IMG/VR virus record: IMGVR_UViG_3300036790_000419
Span: 62,001-126,000 of that record
DNA from: a virus
Strand: one strand, 5' to 3'
Length of the DNA: 64,000 nt
The notes under the pieces: model-generated
Told to the model about the DNA's origin: nothing
The model's input: the letters and a program-made list of their open reading frames with translations, nothing else
Databases searched by the model: none
In this document: piece after piece, positions 10,185 through 30,009 of the stretch
How positions within the stretch are numbered: position 1 is the first letter of the stretch
How the letters are laid out: every line of letters starts with the position of its first letter
Program-made: the position numbers and the translations under genes

Positions 10185-10436
10185 ATGGGCATCGAGGAGA
10201 CGGTAGCGCGACTGCGCGAGGACGTGACCGCCGCCCAGCGCCGGCATGCCGGCGCGGACGCGCGAGCCACTCAGGCTGAGGCGCGCGCGGCGGCGGCCCG
10301 GGAGGACATGCAGGCTGAATTCGGCGTGAGCACCGTGCCGGCGGCCCGGCAGCGGCTCGCTGACCTGGAGCGGCAGCTTGAGGAAGAGGCGGCCGGGGTG
10401 CGCGAGCAGCTCGAACTAGCGGGAGGCACAGTATGA
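10185..10436 (+). CDS. small coiled-coil protein
   Basis: 83 residues from ATG 10185, almost entirely heptad-like Ala/Glu/Arg/Leu, with no Shine-Dalgarno sequence. It is coupled by ATGA to the sliding clamp gene. Possibly a clamp or replisome accessory; function not known. Confidence 0.55.
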   Translation: MGIEETVARLREDVTAAQRRHAGADARATQAEARAAAAREDMQAEFGVSTVPAARQRLADLERQLEEEAAGVREQLELAGGTV

Positions 10437-11590
10437 GCGAGGCTCCGGGCAAGGCTGACTACGGCTCGCTGGAGTTCACCGCGCGGAGGTTCCAGATCGC
10501 GCAACTGGCTGAGTGGGCGCTGCCCGCCGTCCCGTCGTCGCCGACCCTGGCGGTGAACGGCTGCTTCCAGGTCTCAGTGAGCCCGGAGCGGCTGCGCGTG
10601 GCGGCCACCGACCAGCAGACCGCCGTCTTCGCCGAGGTGCCGGCGGTCATCACGCAGTCGACAGGCGAGGTTTTCATCCCCGCGCGGAAGCTGCGGGCCA
10701 TCCTGGCCGAGGCCTGCGAGGGCGACGTCACTATCGCGGTCAAGGGCAGTACCGCGCTGGTGACCGCGGGCCCGTCCACCTGGAGCCTGCGCCTGCCGCC
10801 CCCGGACCGTTACACGGGGCTGCCGGACCTGGCCGCCGCCAGCTTCGCCCCCGTCAGTCGCGAGGTGCTGCTGACAGCGCTGGGCACGGTGCGGCACGCG
10901 GTCGGCAAGGACCAGGGGCGCCCGACGTACACCCAGGTCCGCGTCGGCCCTGACAGCGACGGAACGTTCGCCTGCGCGGCCTCCACCAGCCAGTTCGCCC
11001 GCGCGCCGGTGCCCGGCTTTCCCGGTGAGATGCTCATCCCCGGGCACGCGCTCGATGACCTGGTCAAGCTCCTGTCTAAGGTTCCGGTGGACAACGCTGA
11101 GGTGGCCGAGGCAGGGCCGTACGCGGTGTTCCGCGCCGGGGAGGTCACGCTGGCCGCGCTGCGGGTGGCGAAGAAGTTCCCGGACGTCGGCCAGTTGTTC
11201 CTGCAGCAGGTTCAGGGCAACGACATGGTGCTGAAAGTCGACCGGGAGCAACTGACCGCCGCGCTGCGCCGGGTGCGGATCAATTCCGACGCGAGCACCT
11301 CGGCGGTCGCGCTCATCGCCGACGACGGCCGGCTGACCGTCACGTCCCGGGACAAGGACGCCAGCAGCGCCGAGGAGGTCATCCCGGCGGCGTGGGAGGG
11401 CGGCCAGCGCATCCTGGTCGTCAACGCGGTGTTCTTGCTGGCCATGCTCGCCGCGCACCCGTCGGCCACCTGCGACTTCCGGGTGGGCAAGGACCGCGGC
11501 AAGGCCCGCGCCCCCCTGGTGCTGGAGGACAGCGAGAAGAAGGTCACCGGGATCTGCACGTCGATGCCCCCGGCACTGGTGGGCTATTAG
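10433..11590 (+). CDS. dnaN: DNA polymerase sliding clamp (DnaN-like)
   Basis: 385 residues. Length and pattern fit a three-domain beta clamp: FQVSVSPERLRVAATDQQTAVFAEVPAV, the central FIPARKLRAILAEA, MLIPGHALDDLVKLL, the ALRRVRINSDASTSAVALIADDGRLTVTS segment, and a C-terminal domain ending VTGICTSMPP in place of the usual VMPMRL-type end. It would tether the replicative polymerase. Together with the DnaX-like gene at 16253 it means the phage supplies its own clamp and loader. Confidence 0.8.
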   Translation: MSEAPGKADYGSLEFTARRFQIAQLAEWALPAVPSSPTLAVNGCFQVSVSPERLRVAATDQQTAVFAEVPAVITQSTGEVFIPARKLRAILAEACEGDVTIAVKGSTALVTAGPSTWSLRLPPPDRYTGLPDLAAASFAPVSREVLLTALGTVRHAVGKDQGRPTYTQVRVGPDSDGTFACAASTSQFARAPVPGFPGEMLIPGHALDDLVKLLSKVPVDNAEVAEAGPYAVFRAGEVTLAALRVAKKFPDVGQLFLQQVQGNDMVLKVDREQLTAALRRVRINSDASTSAVALIADDGRLTVTSRDKDASSAEEVIPAAWEGGQRILVVNAVFLLAMLAAHPSATCDFRVGKDRGKARAPLVLEDSEKKVTGICTSMPPALVGY

Positions 11591-11607: not shown

Positions 11608-12054
11608 ATGAGTTACCCGCACTTTTCCGGGGACTGCGACGAGTACCACGAGCTGGTCCGCGACTTCGGCGGCGAGCGCCCGCGCATTGTGTGCCTGTGC
11701 GGCTCAACGCGGTTCTACGCGCAGTTCCAGGAAGCGAACTACCGCCTCACCATGCAGGGCGAGATCGTCCTGTCTGTCGGGTTCTACCCGCACGCGGCGG
11801 CTGAGCACGGTCACGGCGAGGGCGTGGGGCACGACTCGGCGGAGAAGGTCTCGCTTGACGAACTGCACAAGCGCAAGGTCGACCTGGCCGACTACGTGTA
11901 CGTCGTGTCCGAGGGCGGCTACTTCGGCGACTCTACGGCCGGGGAGATCGTCTACGCGGTGAGGAACAGGAAGCAGGTCTTGTTCGCCGAAGAGGTGGCA
12001 CGTGACCGGGCTTACGGGATGGGCTTGCTCGGAGTTGCGCCGGTGAGCCCTTGA
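11608..12054 (+). CDS. nucleoside 2-deoxyribosyltransferase-like protein
   Basis: 148 residues from ATG 11608. RIVCLCGSTRF near the N-terminus, then the variable centre and YVVSEGGYFGDSTAGEIVYAVRNRKQVLF are the pattern of phage nucleoside deoxyribosyltransferase/DUF4406-type proteins (a SLOG-related fold with a Glu nucleophile in the GxS/TxxEI motif). It may act in nucleotide salvage or in processing modified nucleotides. The stop overlaps the next start in TTGA. Confidence 0.6.
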   Translation: MSYPHFSGDCDEYHELVRDFGGERPRIVCLCGSTRFYAQFQEANYRLTMQGEIVLSVGFYPHAAAEHGHGEGVGHDSAEKVSLDELHKRKVDLADYVYVVSEGGYFGDSTAGEIVYAVRNRKQVLFAEEVARDRAYGMGLLGVAPVSP

Positions 12055-12704
12055 CCGACCTCGCCGCGCTCGCCGATGCGGTCCAGGCCACCCGCCGGAA
12101 CCTGGACCGCCAGGCGGGCCGCGCGCAGCAGGTGGCCGAGGCCGGCCTGGCGGCCGAGGCTGAGATCGCGCGCCTTGAGGACCTGGCCGGCGTCTGCGCC
12201 AGGACCGCCGCCCTGCTGACGACGATCGGCGAGGAGCGGCAGGAGAGCGCCCGGCAGGCGTTCGAGGACCTGGCGACGCGGGCGCTGCGGGACATCTTCG
12301 GCGAGGACCTGTCGTTTCACCTGGTGCCCGGCGAGACGGGCGGCCAGGTGACCCTGGAGCCGGTTATCCGGTCGGAGTTCGGCGGCGAGGTCCTGGAGAC
12401 CAGCGTGCTCGACGCGCGCGGGGTGGGCATGGCAGTCGTGGTCGGCTTCGTCCTGCGGCTGGTCATGGTGCTGCTCAGTCCGCAGGCACGCAAGGTCCTG
12501 TTCCTGGATGAGACGTTCGCGTTTGTCAGCGCTAGCTACCGGTGCCAGCTGGCCCGGTTCCTGCGTGAGGTGGCCGGCGAGAACGGCGCGCAGGTCGTTA
12601 TGATTACCCACGACCCGGTCTACACCGAGGAGGCCGACGTGCTGGTGCGCCTGGCTCTCGGTCCGGACAAGGTGACCCGGGTGTTCGAAGGGGAGAGTGA
12701 GTAG
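12051..12704 (+). CDS. Rad50/SbcC-like ATPase, C-terminal half
   Basis: 217 residues from TTG 12051, overlapping the previous stop. It starts with a coiled coil, then DARGVGMAVVVGFVLRLVM stands where Rad50-type proteins have the signature motif, followed by Walker B KVLFLDETFAFVS and the switch histidine VMITHDP. Walker A is missing; it is encoded in the separate N-terminal half at 5831-6772. Phage Rad50-like proteins with a degenerate S/D-x-G-G-G signature are known, so the weak signature is not by itself a sign of decay. Confidence 0.75.
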   Translation: MTDLAALADAVQATRRNLDRQAGRAQQVAEAGLAAEAEIARLEDLAGVCARTAALLTTIGEERQESARQAFEDLATRALRDIFGEDLSFHLVPGETGGQVTLEPVIRSEFGGEVLETSVLDARGVGMAVVVGFVLRLVMVLLSPQARKVLFLDETFAFVSASYRCQLARFLREVAGENGAQVVMITHDPVYTEEADVLVRLALGPDKVTRVFEGESE

Positions 12705-12706
12705 CC

Positions 12707-13000
12707 GTGCCGCTGCCAGGTGAAGGCCAGGTGGCCGAGTTCGACCGCGAGGCGGCCCGCAACGTGGTCCGGTGCGTCGTTCTCGCGGCGGACAGCGAGA
12801 TCCGGCGGGCGCCGGTCCCGTTCAGCAGCGTCCGCAACCCGGACGGCTCGCGGCAGGCTGAGACGCAGAGCGAGCGCGAAACCCGGCTGGTCCGCACGGC
12901 GGTCATGCACCTGCTGGAGCAGGGCCTGGTGGTGCTCCCGCCGGACATCGCGGAGATGCTGGACGACTGGATTCCCCTTGAGCGCGCTGGGACGGACTAG
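12707..13000 (+). CDS. hypothetical protein
   Basis: 97 residues from GTG 12707, mixed helical, ending LLEQGLVVLPPDIAEMLDDWIPLE. It is wedged between the Rad50-like C-half and the radical SAM gene, and its TAG overlaps that gene's GTG by 1 nt. No domain recognised. Confidence 0.55.
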   Translation: MPLPGEGQVAEFDREAARNVVRCVVLAADSEIRRAPVPFSSVRNPDGSRQAETQSERETRLVRTAVMHLLEQGLVVLPPDIAEMLDDWIPLERAGTD

Positions 13001-15963
13001 TGACCGGCCGCAGCCCTGACTCAATCGCCCGGTGGCTGGACGGGAATCTGTTCCGGTTCGACGGCCCGTCCCAGATGCTGGGCACCGAGCCGAACGCCGC
13101 CCGCCGCCCGTGGGACGCGGCGAAGACCCGCTGGCTGCTCGCCGCGTCCTGGGACTACAGCCAGGCGGCCGGCAACATGGCGATCCCCGCCGTCTACGAC
13201 GCCATCCACAAGGCGGGGACGTACAGCCTGGCCGACCGCTGGTACCTGCCTGCCACCCCGCGCGACATGGACCTGCTGGAGCGCGGCCAGGTGCCGGCGT
13301 TCGGCATCGAGAGCCGGCGCCAGGCGCTCGACTTTGACGTGGTGGCCACCAGCATCTCCTACACCGTGCTGTTCATGAACTTCTGCAAGACCCTCTCCAT
13401 GAGCGGTATCCCGCTGCGCTGGGAGGACCGCGCGGGCGACCCGGGGGCTTACCCGATGGTCATGGCCGGCGGCCAGGCCTACTGCGCGCCCGAGTTCATG
13501 GCCCCGGTGGCAGACTGCGTATGGCTGGGTGAGGCCGAGGACGAGCCCGGTAACCCCGGCATGGCCGCGGTCTGCGAGGCCATCGCCCAGATGAAGGCGG
13601 ACGGCCTGTGGCGCGAGGAGCGGGCGCTGTGCTACCGGATGCTGGCCCGCGAGTTCAACTTCCTGTACTTCCCGCGCTTCACCGCCGTGGACTACCGCTA
13701 CGAGGACCGCGGGCTGCCTGAGCTGACCAAGATGGTGTCCGGCTACCGCTCGCTGCTGCCGGGCGTCGGCCCGCGCTTCAAGGCCAGGCGGGTGGTCAGC
13801 CTGAATAACGCGGACCTGATGACGTCCGCGCCGGTGCTGTTCGCCGACCCCGGCATGGGCTCGGGCGACGTCGAGGTAGCGCGCGGCTGCCCGGCCTGGT
13901 GCTCGTTTTGCCGTCTCTCGTGGGCCACCAAGCCCTACCGGCAGGAGGACACGGCTCGCTCGCTGGCTCGCGCGAAGACGTGGCGCGACAACATGGGCAG
14001 TACTGACATTTCCCTGGTCGCCCCTGACCCGCCTATGCACACCCAGATGAAGAAACTGGTCGCCGGGCTGCTGGAGAACGTCACCGGCAAGGTGGACGCG
14101 TCCAGCATGCGGATCGATGACTACCTCAGCGACCCGGACCTCTCCCTGCTGCTGCAGGTCTCGGGCACCACCGCGCTCACCCTCGGCCTGGAGGCCGGCG
14201 CGCAGCGGATACGCGACCTGGCCGGCAAGGGCACCAGCGACGACGACGTGGCGAAGGCGGTCACGGCGGCGATCCGGGCCGGCATCAGGAAGATCAAGAT
14301 CTACTTCATCACCAACTGGCCGGGCGAGGAGCAGGCCGACGTGATGAAGGTGGTGGCCCTGGGCAAGCGCCTGGCTGACATCCGTGACAGCTTTGGCGAG
14401 GCCGCGGCCGGGGTGCAGATCATCTTCTCCTGGACGCCGCTGCTGATCGAGGCGCAGACCCCGCTGCAGTGGTTTGCCGTCACCCCGCCGGACTACATGC
14501 TGCAGCAGGCGCTCGACGAACTCCGCGATCACCGGATCTGGGTCAAGATCGGCAGCAAGGCGTCGCCGCCGAAGCTGGCGTTCTTCCAGGCCTGCCAGCG
14601 AGCGAGCCGCGACGCGGGCGAGGCGATCGTAGACGTTATCGAGAATTACGGGACGGCTTCATGGGGCGGCTTCCCGAAGGACATGCGGGAAAAGCTCGAC
14701 GAGGCGATGAGAGTTCACGGTTTCCGCAACGGGCTCGACGACATATTCGGCGAGCGGTTCTACGAGGACCTGCTCGGCTGGGAGATGATCGACACCGGCG
14801 TGAAGCGCTCCCTCATGTGGCGGGCCTACCGGGACATGGTGGAGCTGCTCGAAGGCACGGACGCCGGGACTTACGACAGTGATATCCCCGAGGGATATCA
14901 CGGCAACGAGTGGGTGCCGCGCTGCGACCAGCAGTGCTCGGGCAGTGCGTGCGGGGTGTGCGACCGCGGCGACCTGGAGCTGCGCCGCGAGTACGTTCAG
15001 GCCGTCGACCGGGACCTGGCTGCCGACCCGGTGCGCCCGCTCGACCAGTCCACCGTCGCGCAGCGCGTCCGGCTGCGGGTGGAGCGCCCGGAGGTGTTCC
15101 GCTTCGTCACCGGCACGTTCCTGGAGTACGCGATCCGCCGGGCCGCCTACCGGGCGCACCGCGACGGGTTCCCCGCGCTCGCCGCCGAGTCGGTGCGCCT
15201 GGTGTCGGCGGGAACCGGCTACCGCGAGCGCAGCGCCGGCGTCGACTATGCCGAGTTCGGCCTGACCGCGCCCGCCGACGGTGACGCGGTCGGCGAGTTC
15301 CTGGCCCGCATGGCAGTGCACGTGCACCCGCACTTGCACTGGAGCGGGAACTACGCGGTGCTCCCGGCGGCGGCGAAGCTGCCCGCGCGCCCGGTCGGCC
15401 TGTGGGAGCTGGAGGTGGCCGACGACCCCGCGGTCCTCGCCCGGCGGCTGCGCTGGTGGGACGAGGCGGAGGCGGTGCCGGTGCTGATCCGCGCGGACAG
15501 CTTCTACGCCGGCACGACCGCCGGGCCCGGCGACGCCAAGGAGCACGTCACTGATTTCTGGGTGACCCGCGACGGGCAGCGGACCGTGCTGCGCATGCTG
15601 CTGAACGGCCGGCTCGGCCCGTACCAGGCGTACGCCGCGCTGTCCGGCAAGGCCAGCTGGCTTGAGGCCGCGCGTTACACCGCCCGCCGACTGGAGTTCT
15701 TCAGCGGCGGCGCTCAGCCGTGCGAAGGGTGCGGGCTGCCCGTGCCGGCCAGCCTGCTCGACGTTCCCTGGAGCGAGCGGTTCTGCCCGCGCTGCGGCGA
15801 CGCAGCCGAAGGGAAGGTTACCGCGGCGCTCTCGGGCGCCGGCGTATTACAGGTACCTGCCTTACGCACACCCTGTGGAGGAACCTGTGGATACTCCCGG
15901 ATACCGGAAGCCCGCTCACCAGTACGGCCAGCCTTACGGCACCTCGCCGGGGGCCGGCGATAG
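13000..15963 (+). CDS. radical SAM protein, TIGR03960-like with C-terminal DUF2344-like and zinc-ribbon segments
   Basis: 987 residues from GTG 13000. The N-terminal domain reads like the bacterial TIGR03960 family (SLADRWYLPATPRDMDLL, FGIESRRQALDFDVV, YPMVMAGGQAYCAPEF, WLGEAEDEPG). The radical SAM cluster motif GCPAWCSFC (C-x3-C-x2-C) lies near residue 297. After residue about 690, RFVTGTFLEYAIRRAAYRA recalls DUF2344, the domain that accompanies TIGR03960 in bacteria. A CxxC...CxxC ribbon closes the recognisable part near residue 935. The last 45 residues look atypical and overlap the next small gene. The reaction is unknown even in bacteria; a tRNA, rRNA or DNA base is a possible substrate. 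Confidence 0.75.
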   Translation: MTGRSPDSIARWLDGNLFRFDGPSQMLGTEPNAARRPWDAAKTRWLLAASWDYSQAAGNMAIPAVYDAIHKAGTYSLADRWYLPATPRDMDLLERGQVPAFGIESRRQALDFDVVATSISYTVLFMNFCKTLSMSGIPLRWEDRAGDPGAYPMVMAGGQAYCAPEFMAPVADCVWLGEAEDEPGNPGMAAVCEAIAQMKADGLWREERALCYRMLAREFNFLYFPRFTAVDYRYEDRGLPELTKMVSGYRSLLPGVGPRFKARRVVSLNNADLMTSAPVLFADPGMGSGDVEVARGCPAWCSFCRLSWATKPYRQEDTARSLARAKTWRDNMGSTDISLVAPDPPMHTQMKKLVAGLLENVTGKVDASSMRIDDYLSDPDLSLLLQVSGTTALTLGLEAGAQRIRDLAGKGTSDDDVAKAVTAAIRAGIRKIKIYFITNWPGEEQADVMKVVALGKRLADIRDSFGEAAAGVQIIFSWTPLLIEAQTPLQWFAVTPPDYMLQQALDELRDHRIWVKIGSKASPPKLAFFQACQRASRDAGEAIVDVIENYGTASWGGFPKDMREKLDEAMRVHGFRNGLDDIFGERFYEDLLGWEMIDTGVKRSLMWRAYRDMVELLEGTDAGTYDSDIPEGYHGNEWVPRCDQQCSGSACGVCDRGDLELRREYVQAVDRDLAADPVRPLDQSTVAQRVRLRVERPEVFRFVTGTFLEYAIRRAAYRAHRDGFPALAAESVRLVSAGTGYRERSAGVDYAEFGLTAPADGDAVGEFLARMAVHVHPHLHWSGNYAVLPAAAKLPARPVGLWELEVADDPAVLARRLRWWDEAEAVPVLIRADSFYAGTTAGPGDAKEHVTDFWVTRDGQRTVLRMLLNGRLGPYQAYAALSGKASWLEAARYTARRLEFFSGGAQPCEGCGLPVPASLLDVPWSERFCPRCGDAAEGKVTAALSGAGVLQVPALRTPCGGTCGYSRIPEARSPVRPALRHLAGGRR

Positions 15964-16036: not shown

Positions 16037-16256
16037 GCCGCTAGTCGAGCGGGGTGCCGGCTGTCCTTACTGCGGCGGTTCCGCCGAGCCCGAGCAGGAC
16101 GGCGACGTCGTGTACTTCGCCTGCCCGGCGTGCGAGGGCGAGTTCGGCCACCGCAAGGCTGACCGGGGCACGTTCTGCGCGGCCGGCCTGCCCGTTGCCG
16201 GGCCACCGCCCGGCCCCCCGGTCATCGCGGCCACCATCAGGAGGAGACCCGAGTGA
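16020..16256 (+). CDS. small zinc-ribbon protein
   Basis: 78 residues if started at TTG 16020, which has TGGAG 5 nt upstream; no ATG or GTG is available in frame. CPYCGGS and CPACEGEF form a four-cysteine zinc ribbon. Its TGA overlaps the GTG of the clamp-loader gene and GAGGAG of that gene lies within it. Function unknown. Confidence 0.5.
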   Translation: MTSLPEPLVERGAGCPYCGGSAEPEQDGDVVYFACPACEGEFGHRKADRGTFCAAGLPVAGPPPGPPVIAATIRRRPE

Positions 16257-17401
16257 GCGAGCCCCTGCACCTGAAGTACCGGCCCCGGACGTTCGCCGAT
16301 GTCGCCGGGCAGCGCCCGTCTGTCGCCGTCTTGTACCGGATGTGCAAGCTGGGCAGCGTGCCCGGCGGGATGCTCTTCTACGGCGAGCGGGGCTGCGGCA
16401 AGACGACGATGGCCCGGATCGTGGCCAAGGCCCTCAACTGCGAGGCGGGCCCCGGGCCGGCCGGGAGCTGGCCGTGCGGGGCATGCGCGAGCTGCGAGGC
16501 GGTTGACGGCGACACCAGCCCGGACGTGGAGGAGCTGGACGCCGCGAGCAACGGCGGAGTCGAGCAGGTCCGGGACATCCGCACCAGGGCCTACTACGGC
16601 GCCGTCGGCGGCGGCCGGAAGGTCTACATCGTCGACGAGGCGCACGGCCTGTCCGGGCCCGCGTTCGAGTCCCTCCTGAAGGTCCTGGAGGAGCCGCCGC
16701 CCGGCGTGGTGTTCATCTTGGTCACCACTCAGCTCAGCGCTATCCCCCGCACGGTGCGCAGCCGGTGCAGCCCGTTCCGGTTCGACCCGCTGCCAGTCGG
16801 GGTCATCCGGGACCGGCTGGCGGCCATCTGCCAGGCTGAGGGGACCGCCGCCGAGCCCGCGCTGCTGACCGCCATCGCCGAGGCCGCCCGCGGCGGCATG
16901 CGCGACGCCGTGGTCCGGCTTGACCAGGTGTCCTCGGTCGGCATCACCTCGCTGTCCATGTGGCGCGAGCTGACCGGGGAGACCGATTTCGCCCCTGCCC
17001 TGCTGGCCGCGGCGGCTGACGGCGACCCGGGGGCCATGTACGCCGCGATGGACCGCGCGCTGGCCACGTACGGCGACCCGGGGCAGGTCGCCCGCGAGGT
17101 CGTCTTCTGCCTGCGCGACCTGCTGGTGCTGTCGTGCGGCGCCGACGTCGCCGCGCAGGGCGAGGCGCTGGCGGCCCGCCGCGAGCTTGCCGGCCGCCTC
17201 GGCGTGCCCCGGGTGCAGGCGGCGATGGCCGTGCTGTGGGACCTGCAGACCAGGACCCGGGTTGATGACCGGGAGACCGCCCTGACCCTCGCGCTGTCCG
17301 TGGTCGCCCGGAAGCTGGGCCAGCAGCCCCCGCCGATTGCCGCCAGCGGGAGCCAGAAGGCCTCCTTTGATGAGATCAAGGATGCCCTGGGGGCACTGTG
17401 A
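16253..17401 (+). CDS. dnaX: DNA polymerase III gamma/tau-like clamp loader subunit
   Basis: 382 residues. KYRPRTFADVAGQ, Walker A GERGCGKTT, the four-cysteine zinc module (CPC/CASC region, residues about 70-80), Walker B YIVDEAHGLS and LEEPPPGVVFILVTT followed by IPRTVRSRC (sensor I and the SRC arginine finger) are the DnaX signature in the right order. The C-terminal oligomerisation domain is present and the tau extension is absent. It loads the phage clamp (10433-11590). Confidence 0.85.
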   Translation: MSEPLHLKYRPRTFADVAGQRPSVAVLYRMCKLGSVPGGMLFYGERGCGKTTMARIVAKALNCEAGPGPAGSWPCGACASCEAVDGDTSPDVEELDAASNGGVEQVRDIRTRAYYGAVGGGRKVYIVDEAHGLSGPAFESLLKVLEEPPPGVVFILVTTQLSAIPRTVRSRCSPFRFDPLPVGVIRDRLAAICQAEGTAAEPALLTAIAEAARGGMRDAVVRLDQVSSVGITSLSMWRELTGETDFAPALLAAAADGDPGAMYAAMDRALATYGDPGQVAREVVFCLRDLLVLSCGADVAAQGEALAARRELAGRLGVPRVQAAMAVLWDLQTRTRVDDRETALTLALSVVARKLGQQPPPIAASGSQKASFDEIKDALGAL

Positions 17402-17631: not shown

Positions 17632-18186
17632 ATGGCCCTCTGCTTCAACGAGGAGTGGATGAGCCAGGGCCAGCTCGACGTGCTGGCGGCCCTGGCCCAG
17701 TCCACCGGCTACCTTGACGGCGCGGCCGTCGAGATCGGCACCTGGCAGGGCCGTAGCGCTATCCCTATCGCCAACGCGATCCGCCCGAGGACCCTGCACG
17801 TCGTCGACCACTGGGAGGGCGACGGCCCGGAGTCGGCCGCGGCCGGCATCGGCATCGACCCGGAGCTGGTCAAGCGGGACAACTACGGGATCTTCCTGGC
17901 CAACGTCGCCGAGGCCACGCAGGGCAACGTCCAGGTCTGGAAGGCGGACTGGCGGGAGTTCGCGGCCAAGTGGGACCGCCCGATCGGGTTCCTGCACCTG
18001 GACGCCGCGCACACCACGGCGGAGGTGTCCGACTGCATCGCCGCGCTGCTGCCGCACGCCGTGCCCGGCGCCGTCTTCGCCGGCGACGACTGGAACTTCC
18101 CGACGGTGGCGGCCGGGGTCCGCGAGCAGTTCCCGGACAGCCAGCTCAGCGTCCAGTTCGGCAAGCTCTGGTGGGTGACCCTGTGA
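17632..18186 (+). CDS. class I SAM-dependent methyltransferase
   Basis: 184 residues directly after the previous stop. AVEIGTWQGRSAIPIANAI is motif I, VVDHWEGD motif II, and FLHLDAAHTTAEVSDC plus GAVFAGDDW match Methyltransf_24-type enzymes that often act on sugars or small molecules. It is followed by two glycosyltransferases in overlapping frames, so it probably methylates a sugar or the glycosylated target. Confidence 0.7.
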   Translation: MALCFNEEWMSQGQLDVLAALAQSTGYLDGAAVEIGTWQGRSAIPIANAIRPRTLHVVDHWEGDGPESAAAGIGIDPELVKRDNYGIFLANVAEATQGNVQVWKADWREFAAKWDRPIGFLHLDAAHTTAEVSDCIAALLPHAVPGAVFAGDDWNFPTVAAGVREQFPDSQLSVQFGKLWWVTL

Positions 18187-18998
18187 AACTGTGGGATACC
18201 TGCATGCTCCGCGATGAGCTGGACATCCTCGAATGCCACCTGACGGAGTACGAGGACACTGACATCTGGCGGCACGTCATCGTGGAGGCCCCGCTGACGT
18301 TCACCGGCCAGCCGAAGCCGTTGTACTTCGCGGAGAACAGGGAACGGTTCGCCCCGTGGGCTGACCGGATCGTCCACCTGGTCGACGACGAGCTGCCGGA
18401 GACGCACGACCCCTGGGTCCGCGAGCGCCACCAGCGCGACTTCGCCATGCGCGGCCTGGAGGGCTCGACACCCGATGACGTCCTCATCGTCGCCGACGTC
18501 GATGAGCTGCTCTTCCGCGAGACCCTGAGGGTGCGGCCCGACCCGCTGCTCGGGGTGGGCCTGCAGCTGCTGTACGGCGCGGTGGACCGGCTCGGGAACG
18601 TGCAGGTCATGTCGTCGCTGGCCCGGCGGGGCGTGGTCTCCTCGCTGAATGAGGTGCGCGAGCGCCGGGAGTCCTACCCGAGGGTTGAGCTGGGCGGCTG
18701 GCACTTGTCCTGGCTGGGCGGCCCGGAGGTGATCCGGCGCAAGGCACTGTCGTTCAGCCACACCGAGGCGGTGCCGAAGATCTGCGGGGACAGTGCCTCG
18801 CCGGGTATCGCTTACGAGATGTGGGCGAAAGGCTGGGTGGAGGCGGACGGGGAGACTTACCCTGGCACCACCGACGTGGACCCGGACGCGACCTGGCCCA
18901 AGTGGATCTGGCAGTCCTGGGACCCGGTGCGGCGGCGCCGCCGCCGGCACGGACCCGCGCCGGCCTCCTGGTTCCGCCCGAGGGAGAGCGCATGCTGA
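18183..18998 (+). CDS. glycosyltransferase, GT17-like
   Basis: 271 residues from GTG 18183. KLWDTCMLRDELDILECHLTE is the characteristic opening of GT17 (beta-1,4-N-acetylglucosaminyltransferase III-like) proteins, followed by VIVEAPLTFTGQPKPLYF and DVLIVADVDELLF with the DxD-type metal motif. The C-terminal 30 residues are Arg-rich. It overlaps the methyltransferase and the next transferase. It is likely to glycosylate a virion protein or another phage product. Confidence 0.7.
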   Translation: MKLWDTCMLRDELDILECHLTEYEDTDIWRHVIVEAPLTFTGQPKPLYFAENRERFAPWADRIVHLVDDELPETHDPWVRERHQRDFAMRGLEGSTPDDVLIVADVDELLFRETLRVRPDPLLGVGLQLLYGAVDRLGNVQVMSSLARRGVVSSLNEVRERRESYPRVELGGWHLSWLGGPEVIRRKALSFSHTEAVPKICGDSASPGIAYEMWAKGWVEADGETYPGTTDVDPDATWPKWIWQSWDPVRRRRRRHGPAPASWFRPRESAC

Positions 18999-19771
18999 AT
19001 GACACCGCCCTGCTCATCACCGCCTGGAAGCGGCCGGAGTACCTGCGCCGTACCCTCGCCTCGTGGGCCGCCGCCGCGGACGTGGGCGAGCTGCGCATGG
19101 TCGCCGTCGCCCTCGGCTGGTCGAGTCACATGGATGACCAGATGGACGTCATCGCCGAAGCCGAGCAGGTACTGGGCCGCAAGGTCGTCGTGCTGAAGGA
19201 CAGCACGGAGGCCGCGCACGGTTCCGGCATGCACCGCGCGCTTGGCGAGGCCATAGACCGGGTACTCGACGGGTTCAGCCCGGAGTTCGTGCTCTGCGGC
19301 GAAGAGGACGTCATCGTCTCCAGTGACGTGCTGCGCTACATGGCCTGGGCGCAGGCCCAGTACACCGACAACGTGCTGTGCATCTGCGCGCACAACCGCG
19401 GCGGGGCAGGCTGGGACGGCCTGAGCGCGCCGCGCCAGGACGACGAGGCCGACCAGTCGGCGGTGCGGCTGCTGCCGTACTTCAACCCCTGGGTGTGGTG
19501 CACCTGGCAGCACACCTGGAAGGCGACGATCCGCCCGGTGTGGGACTGGGACTGCGACAGCGGCGTCGCGTTCAACGAGTCCGGCTACGACTGGAACCTG
19601 CAGCGGCTGTCCGGCACCGGGCCATGGCTGAACCTGGTGCCGGACGCCGCGCGCAGCCAGACCATCGGGGAGTACGCCGGGGTGTACTCGAACCCGGGTA
19701 TCTTCCCGCTGCAGCAGGCCCGGTCGTTCCGCGAGGAGCGCGAGAACGTGCGGTACTGGCTGAAAGACTAG
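18992..19771 (+). CDS. glycosyltransferase, GT-A fold (GT2/GT13-like)
   Basis: 259 residues from ATG 18992, overlapping the GT17-like gene by 7 nt. The N-terminus ALLITAWKRPEYLRRTL is the usual GT-A start, VLCGEEDVIVSSDVLRYM gives an EED metal motif as in GT13, and PWVWCTWQHTWKAT and DWNLQRL follow. It probably acts in the same glycan pathway as the adjoining methyltransferase and GT17-like enzyme. Confidence 0.65.
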   Translation: MLNDTALLITAWKRPEYLRRTLASWAAAADVGELRMVAVALGWSSHMDDQMDVIAEAEQVLGRKVVVLKDSTEAAHGSGMHRALGEAIDRVLDGFSPEFVLCGEEDVIVSSDVLRYMAWAQAQYTDNVLCICAHNRGGAGWDGLSAPRQDDEADQSAVRLLPYFNPWVWCTWQHTWKATIRPVWDWDCDSGVAFNESGYDWNLQRLSGTGPWLNLVPDAARSQTIGEYAGVYSNPGIFPLQQARSFREERENVRYWLKD

Positions 19772-29930: not shown

Positions 29931-30008
29931 CGCGGAGTAGGGGAGTTCGGTTGTCCCCGCGGCGCTTTCATAACGCCGAGATCGCGGGTCCGAATCCCGC
30001 CTCCGCCA
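29931..30008 (+). tRNA. initiator-like tRNA-Met(CAT) with 9-nt anticodon loop
   Basis: Acceptor CGCGGAG/CTCCGCC with an unpaired C1-C72, as in initiators. Stem CGGCG/CGCCG encloses CTTTCATAA, two bases longer than normal. Confidence 0.65.
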
Positions 30009-30009
30009 C

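Follow-up and report, generated by a model that had tools for sequence, protein, structure and literature searches.

Genomic setting of the phage radical-SAM gene

The window analyzed here, 64,000 bases spanning positions 62001-126000 of a 148,913-base IMG/VR virus record, contains a gene for a radical-SAM protein lying between the genes for a sliding clamp and a clamp loader, within a DNA-replication cluster (Table 1). The same contig codes for a UvsX/RecA-like recombinase, terminase, portal, major head protein and tail fiber. A terminase, a portal, a capsid protein, a clamp and a clamp loader identify the record as a genuine phage, specifically a tailed one; these phage genes, together with the conserved phage synteny described below, rule out bacterial contamination as the source of the gene. 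Beyond the clamp loader (window positions 17632-19771) are genes for a Methyltransf_24 methyltransferase and for glycosyltransferases of families 17 and 2, which some relatives have and others lack. Elsewhere in the record, outside the window, a flavohaemoglobin-like protein with globin, FAD and NAD domains is encoded at record positions 138976-140163 on the minus strand; a 60% identical copy occupies a similar place in the related record G009, and none was found in five other records. The right end of the record (~143-148.9 kb) codes for a GntR regulator, a DUF2637 protein, a TraG/FtsK-like ORF and a possible GIY-YIG ORF, which resemble an actinomycete plasmid backbone, and the phage may be a phage-plasmid.

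Table 1. Features of the radical-SAM locus and its surroundings (window coordinates)
Feature	Coordinates	Strand	Remarks
DNA polymerase III beta-like sliding clamp	10433..11590	+	
ABC/RecF-SMC-like ATPase, C-terminal half only	12051..12704	+	Precedes the radical-SAM gene in 9/9 homologous loci
Fused TIGR03960-like/DUF2344-like radical-SAM gene	13000..15963	+	987 codons, GTG start; conservation to codon ~952
Radical_SAM_N2 (B12-binding-like Rossmann) domain, residues 65-208	13192..13623	+	PF19864, 2.2e-22; predicted fold matches B12-type radical-SAM enzymes
Radical SAM core, residues 292-452	13873..14355	+	PF04055, 7.6e-15
4Fe-4S motif CxxxCxxC, C297/C301/C304	13888..13911	+	Invariant in phages, conserved in cellular homologs
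Cysteine cluster C642/C646/C651/C654	14923..14961	+	End of the TIGR03960-like part
DUF2344-like, TruA-like (pseudouridine-synthase fold) region, residues ~686-900	15055..15699	+	Catalytic Asp absent; hhalign, AF2, Foldseek
C-terminal zinc ribbon, C908/C911/C929/C932	15721..15795	+	Invariant cysteines
Nucleotide-conserved element GCGTATTACAGG, codons 948-952	15842..15853	+	Includes a rare TTA codon
Small ORF, 49 aa	15887..16036	+	Conserved Shine-Dalgarno GGAGG and GTG start; overlaps the radical-SAM 3' end
Clamp loader (DnaX/delta-prime-like)	16253..17401	+	
33 tRNA genes, all 20 amino acids	26358..31263	+	ARAGORN

Approximately 10 kb from the radical-SAM gene lies a tRNA array, 28 of whose 33 genes are supported by Rfam at gathering score; each of five other members of the phage group carries 31-37 tRNAs in a similar order. 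One predicted "SeC" (tca) tRNA at 29931-30009 was considered as a potential selenocysteine tRNA, a reading that was rejected because comparison with the relative L063 reveals a CAU-type tRNA with two extra anticodon-loop bases.

At its 3' end the radical-SAM gene has about 35 codons that are not conserved and that overlap the start of the downstream small ORF. The frame of this tail differs among members, and a C-terminal frameshift was therefore considered; nevertheless, the conserved Shine-Dalgarno and GTG mark a separate small ORF that suffices to explain the tail, and no frameshift needs to be invoked. In L009 and L012 the small ORF is joined in frame to the radical-SAM gene, and a CxxC-type zinc-ribbon ORF lies between the small ORF and the clamp loader. 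Just upstream, the element GCGTATTAC occurs at the same place and in one copy per locus in all nine of the first homologs (L008-L016). It contains rare GTA and TTA codons, the latter accounting for 4 of 6,484 codons; among variant loci L023 retains GTATTA followed by one extra base, and L027 has GGCGTATAAG. This element is possibly a regulatory site overlapping the coding sequence.

Domain architecture of the N-terminal two thirds

The N-terminal part combines a Radical_SAM_N2 domain with a radical-SAM core bearing the CxxxCxxC motif, an arrangement typical of TIGR03960, and closes with the cysteine cluster (CxxxC...CG) that ends members of that family. C297, C301 and C304 are invariant in eight aligned phage homologs, as are all four cysteines of the C-terminal cluster, of which C642, C646 and C651 are conserved in cellular homologs too. 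The NCBIfam TIGR03960 model matches residues 17-611 (E 1.4e-54) with 185.6 bits, short of its curated NCBI cut-off of 462.3 bits, as are the scores of 161-199 bits across six phage records. A PHROG search with the protein gave no match.

An AlphaFold2 model of the full-length protein is of moderate confidence (pLDDT 65), with low values around the cluster. In Foldseek searches its best PDB match is MgmA (9ccb; E 1.1e-10), followed by TsrM, AprD4, TokK, OxsB and CysS; all six are B12-type radical-SAM enzymes, and the top entries are 9ccb, 6wtf, 6fd2, 7kdx and 5ul3. Judging from this fold class, the phage enzyme may use B12.

The C-terminal third: a TruA-like module and a zinc ribbon

The Pfam DUF2344 model (PF10105) fails to match the protein of any of six phage records even at E<=10, and hence also at its gathering score, which bacterial DUF2344 proteins pass at 153-171 bits. 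However, a profile-profile comparison (hhalign) of eight phage C-terminal parts with bacterial DUF2344 gave an E-value of 5.5e-6 over 191 collinear columns (probability 86%), as against 0.37 for the phage N-terminal part used as a control. Given this separation and the silence of the Pfam model, we regard the DUF2344 part as real but remote; the DUF2344 partner of TIGR03960 is thus present as a fused C-terminal region.

The C-terminal 297 residues modeled on their own with AF2 attain a pLDDT of 83 and a pTM of 0.83, and among solved structures Foldseek places this model closest to TruA (1vs3; E 5.8e-4, probability 1.00), a tRNA pseudouridine synthase; PUS3, Cbf5 and TruB rank lower. According to a published analysis of the pseudouridine-synthase/PUA clan (PMC7955657), Pfam puts DUF2344 in this clan and treats it and PseudoU_synth_1 as the two halves of one pseudouridine-synthase domain. 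The bacterial DUF2344 profile matches TruA (E 4.6e-4), with the alignment in register with the TruA catalytic motif, but the phage profile compared directly with TruA is negative (E 0.14), so that the link from the phage to TruA runs via bacterial DUF2344 and the predicted fold. At the position aligned to the catalytic Asp of TruA neither the phage proteins nor bacterial DUF2344 have an Asp. By its appearance, then, the module looks like a disabled pseudouridine synthase, with the fold but not the catalytic residue, and its most plausible role is to hold RNA. The zinc ribbon that follows it has weak PDB matches to the Fpg/Nei zinc fingers and YbiI.

In these respects an earlier note on this DNA held up well. 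It had described a 987-residue phage protein with a TIGR03960-like N-terminal domain, CxxxCxxC and a DUF2344-like C-terminal part, and had proposed profile and Foldseek comparisons of each part; the ORF is present on a phage contig, and similarity to both families was recovered, below the curated cut-off for the first and through profile-profile comparison and fold for the second. By the curated cut-offs the phage protein is a member of neither family; based on motifs, profiles and fold it is a remote relative of both that probably works like them.

Phyletic distribution and evolution

Eleven further records, two pairs of near-copies among them, emerged when a set of 2.9 million viral contigs was scanned twice; their proteins are 58-81% identical to this one, and the gene is thus present in twelve IMG/VR records, all from large soil phages. 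In the first nine loci the gene order is retained: PDDEXK nuclease, sliding clamp, ABC-type ATPase half, radical-SAM gene and clamp loader. These scans yielded no other viral lineage with the gene. Scanning the viral contigs with the bacterial form returned one 4-kb contig bearing both parts, which is probably a bacterial fragment, and "phage" matches in GenBank were rejected as short unannotated fecal scaffolds with bacterial gene content. Within the collections scanned, a single phage lineage accounts for every occurrence of the fused form.

Among GTDB genomes, phage-specific patterns picked out a single match, a chromosomal Kribbella protein of 25% identity, while the phage profile matched in 106 of 198 Actinomycetota genomes by its N-terminal part only. 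A separate DUF2344 gene lies near the TIGR03960-like match in at least 21 of the actinobacterial loci fetched; hence, the bacteria examined encode the two parts in adjacent genes, whereas the phage has them fused in one chain. RNase E/G, which the earlier note had given as the usual companion of the bacterial pair, adjoins it in all four actinobacterial loci scanned for neighbors, and in one of the four L21, L27 and Obg then follow. A neighborhood with RNase E/G, L21 and L27 is typical of TIGR03960, though not obligatory; none of the six phage records has RNase E/G.

In a phylogenetic tree the phage sequences are monophyletic (support 100), and their common stem measures 3.6 changes per site. 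Across 34 cellular homologs 139 columns are conserved at >=90%, and the phage shares the residue in 71 of these, including C297, C301, C304, C642, C646 and C651. Estimates of dN/dS against the nearest homolog are ~0.31 for the N2 region, ~0.29 for the radical-SAM core, ~0.15 for the linker region, ~0.49 for the DUF2344 part and ~0.26 for the zinc ribbon: purifying selection acts on every domain of the phage enzyme. In light of its monophyly, long stem and purifying selection, this is an old, maintained phage gene rather than a recent acquisition. Recent transfer from an actinobacterial host was ruled out, given that the nearest cellular homologs are ~25% identical and the phages form one long-stemmed clade. 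The view of the earlier note that a "bacterial-type" protein had been retained is accordingly superseded by that of a very divergent phage lineage whose protein is fused and has gained a zinc ribbon, and whose gene keeps a constant position among the replication genes.

Functional prediction

Based on the above, we propose that the protein is probably a radical-SAM RNA-modifying enzyme peculiar to this phage lineage, in which a dead pseudouridine-synthase module would hold the RNA. The protein is built from a B12-binding-like domain, a radical-SAM barrel carrying the motif for a single 4Fe-4S cluster, the cysteine cluster, the seemingly dead DUF2344 module and the zinc ribbon. The latter two would keep a structured RNA in place, whether a tRNA of phage or host or an rRNA, and offer one of its nucleotides to the radical-SAM center, where S-adenosylmethionine would be cleaved and a carbon group added or rearranged, comparable to the reactions of cobalamin-type radical-SAM enzymes; the purpose might be to tune or protect translation during infection. 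RNA modification is favored by the pseudouridine-synthase-like fold, the matches to B12-type radical-SAM folds and the array of 31-37 tRNAs in every member tested, and an RNA substrate is suggested by the fold of the C-terminal part and by the bacterial and phage contexts. The co-occurrence with tRNAs, to which the earlier note had drawn attention, fits an RNA-modifying role, yet as all phage members constitute one clade it is not independent evidence. Several points count against this prediction: the gene is located in a DNA replication cluster, with the tRNAs 10 kb away, the direct comparison of the phage profile with TruA is negative, and the full-length model has a pLDDT of only 65. A narrower version, offered tentatively, is that a possibly B12-dependent enzyme acts on the tRNAs which the phage itself brings, or on rRNA of the host, perhaps as a means of resisting host tRNA-cutting defenses.

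That same location, constant between sliding clamp and clamp loader in 9/9 homologous loci, could instead indicate that the enzyme modifies phage DNA, supplying a radical-SAM step in base hypermodification against restriction in concert with the adjoining replisome genes, and the weak likeness of the zinc ribbon to the fingers of Fpg/Nei DNA glycosylases is in keeping with this. We consider it unlikely: among the selected ORFs scanned with Pfam there is no gene for base modification, be it thymidylate-synthase-like, 7-deazaguanine or other, the DUF2344 fold is that of RNA pseudouridine synthases, and the bacterial relatives adjoin RNA-processing genes. Where the earlier note hinted at RNA or base modification, its RNA half gains from the C-terminal fold and the tRNAs, as a predicted function, and its interpretation as a whole is partly supported.

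Modification of a protein of translation or RNA decay (e.g. L21, L27 or RNase E/G) that redirects host translation would account for the neighbors of the bacterial pair, and the closest solved fold, MgmA, methylates a protein glutamine; but with a pseudouridine-synthase-like module pointing to RNA and a phage devoid of RNase E/G, we hold this to be rather improbable. Least probable is an auxiliary role in small-molecule or cofactor metabolism, or a lost activity, for although B12-type radical-SAM enzymes are often metabolic and unrelated B12-like radical-SAM proteins occur in other phages, the gene is a core one whose synteny is fixed, its cysteines are intact, all its domains are under purifying selection, and the modules fused in it are of nucleic-acid type.

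A literature search on TIGR03960, and on DUF2344 with radical SAM, found no function for the bacterial pair. The single-chain form in phages with an almost complete tRNA set of their own is a compact system for finding the substrate. If true, the narrower version proposed above would also provide a first function for this unexplained pair. RNA modification by the phage enzyme would mean that radical-SAM chemistry has been joined to a dead pseudouridine synthase serving as an RNA clamp, and that a phage modifies RNA through complex radical chemistry.

Comparison with known systems

The phage protein has in common with TIGR03960 (rSAM_fuse_unch) its domain order, CxxxCxxC and C-terminal cysteine cluster, but differs from the bacterial proteins of that family in its low identity, its long separate branch, the fused DUF2344-like part and the lack of an RNase E/G neighbor. 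In predicted overall fold its N-terminal two thirds resemble the B12-dependent radical SAM enzymes MgmA, TsrM, TokK, OxsB and CysS, to which it is 12-15% identical and relative to which it has additional C-terminal modules. Its C-terminal part is collinear with DUF2344 (PF10105) and has a predicted TruA-like fold, but is a domain of a radical-SAM protein where the bacteria examined have a separate gene. Finally, the module shares its predicted fold with TruA and other pseudouridine synthases, and differs from TruA, as bacterial DUF2344 does, in the absence of the catalytic Asp.
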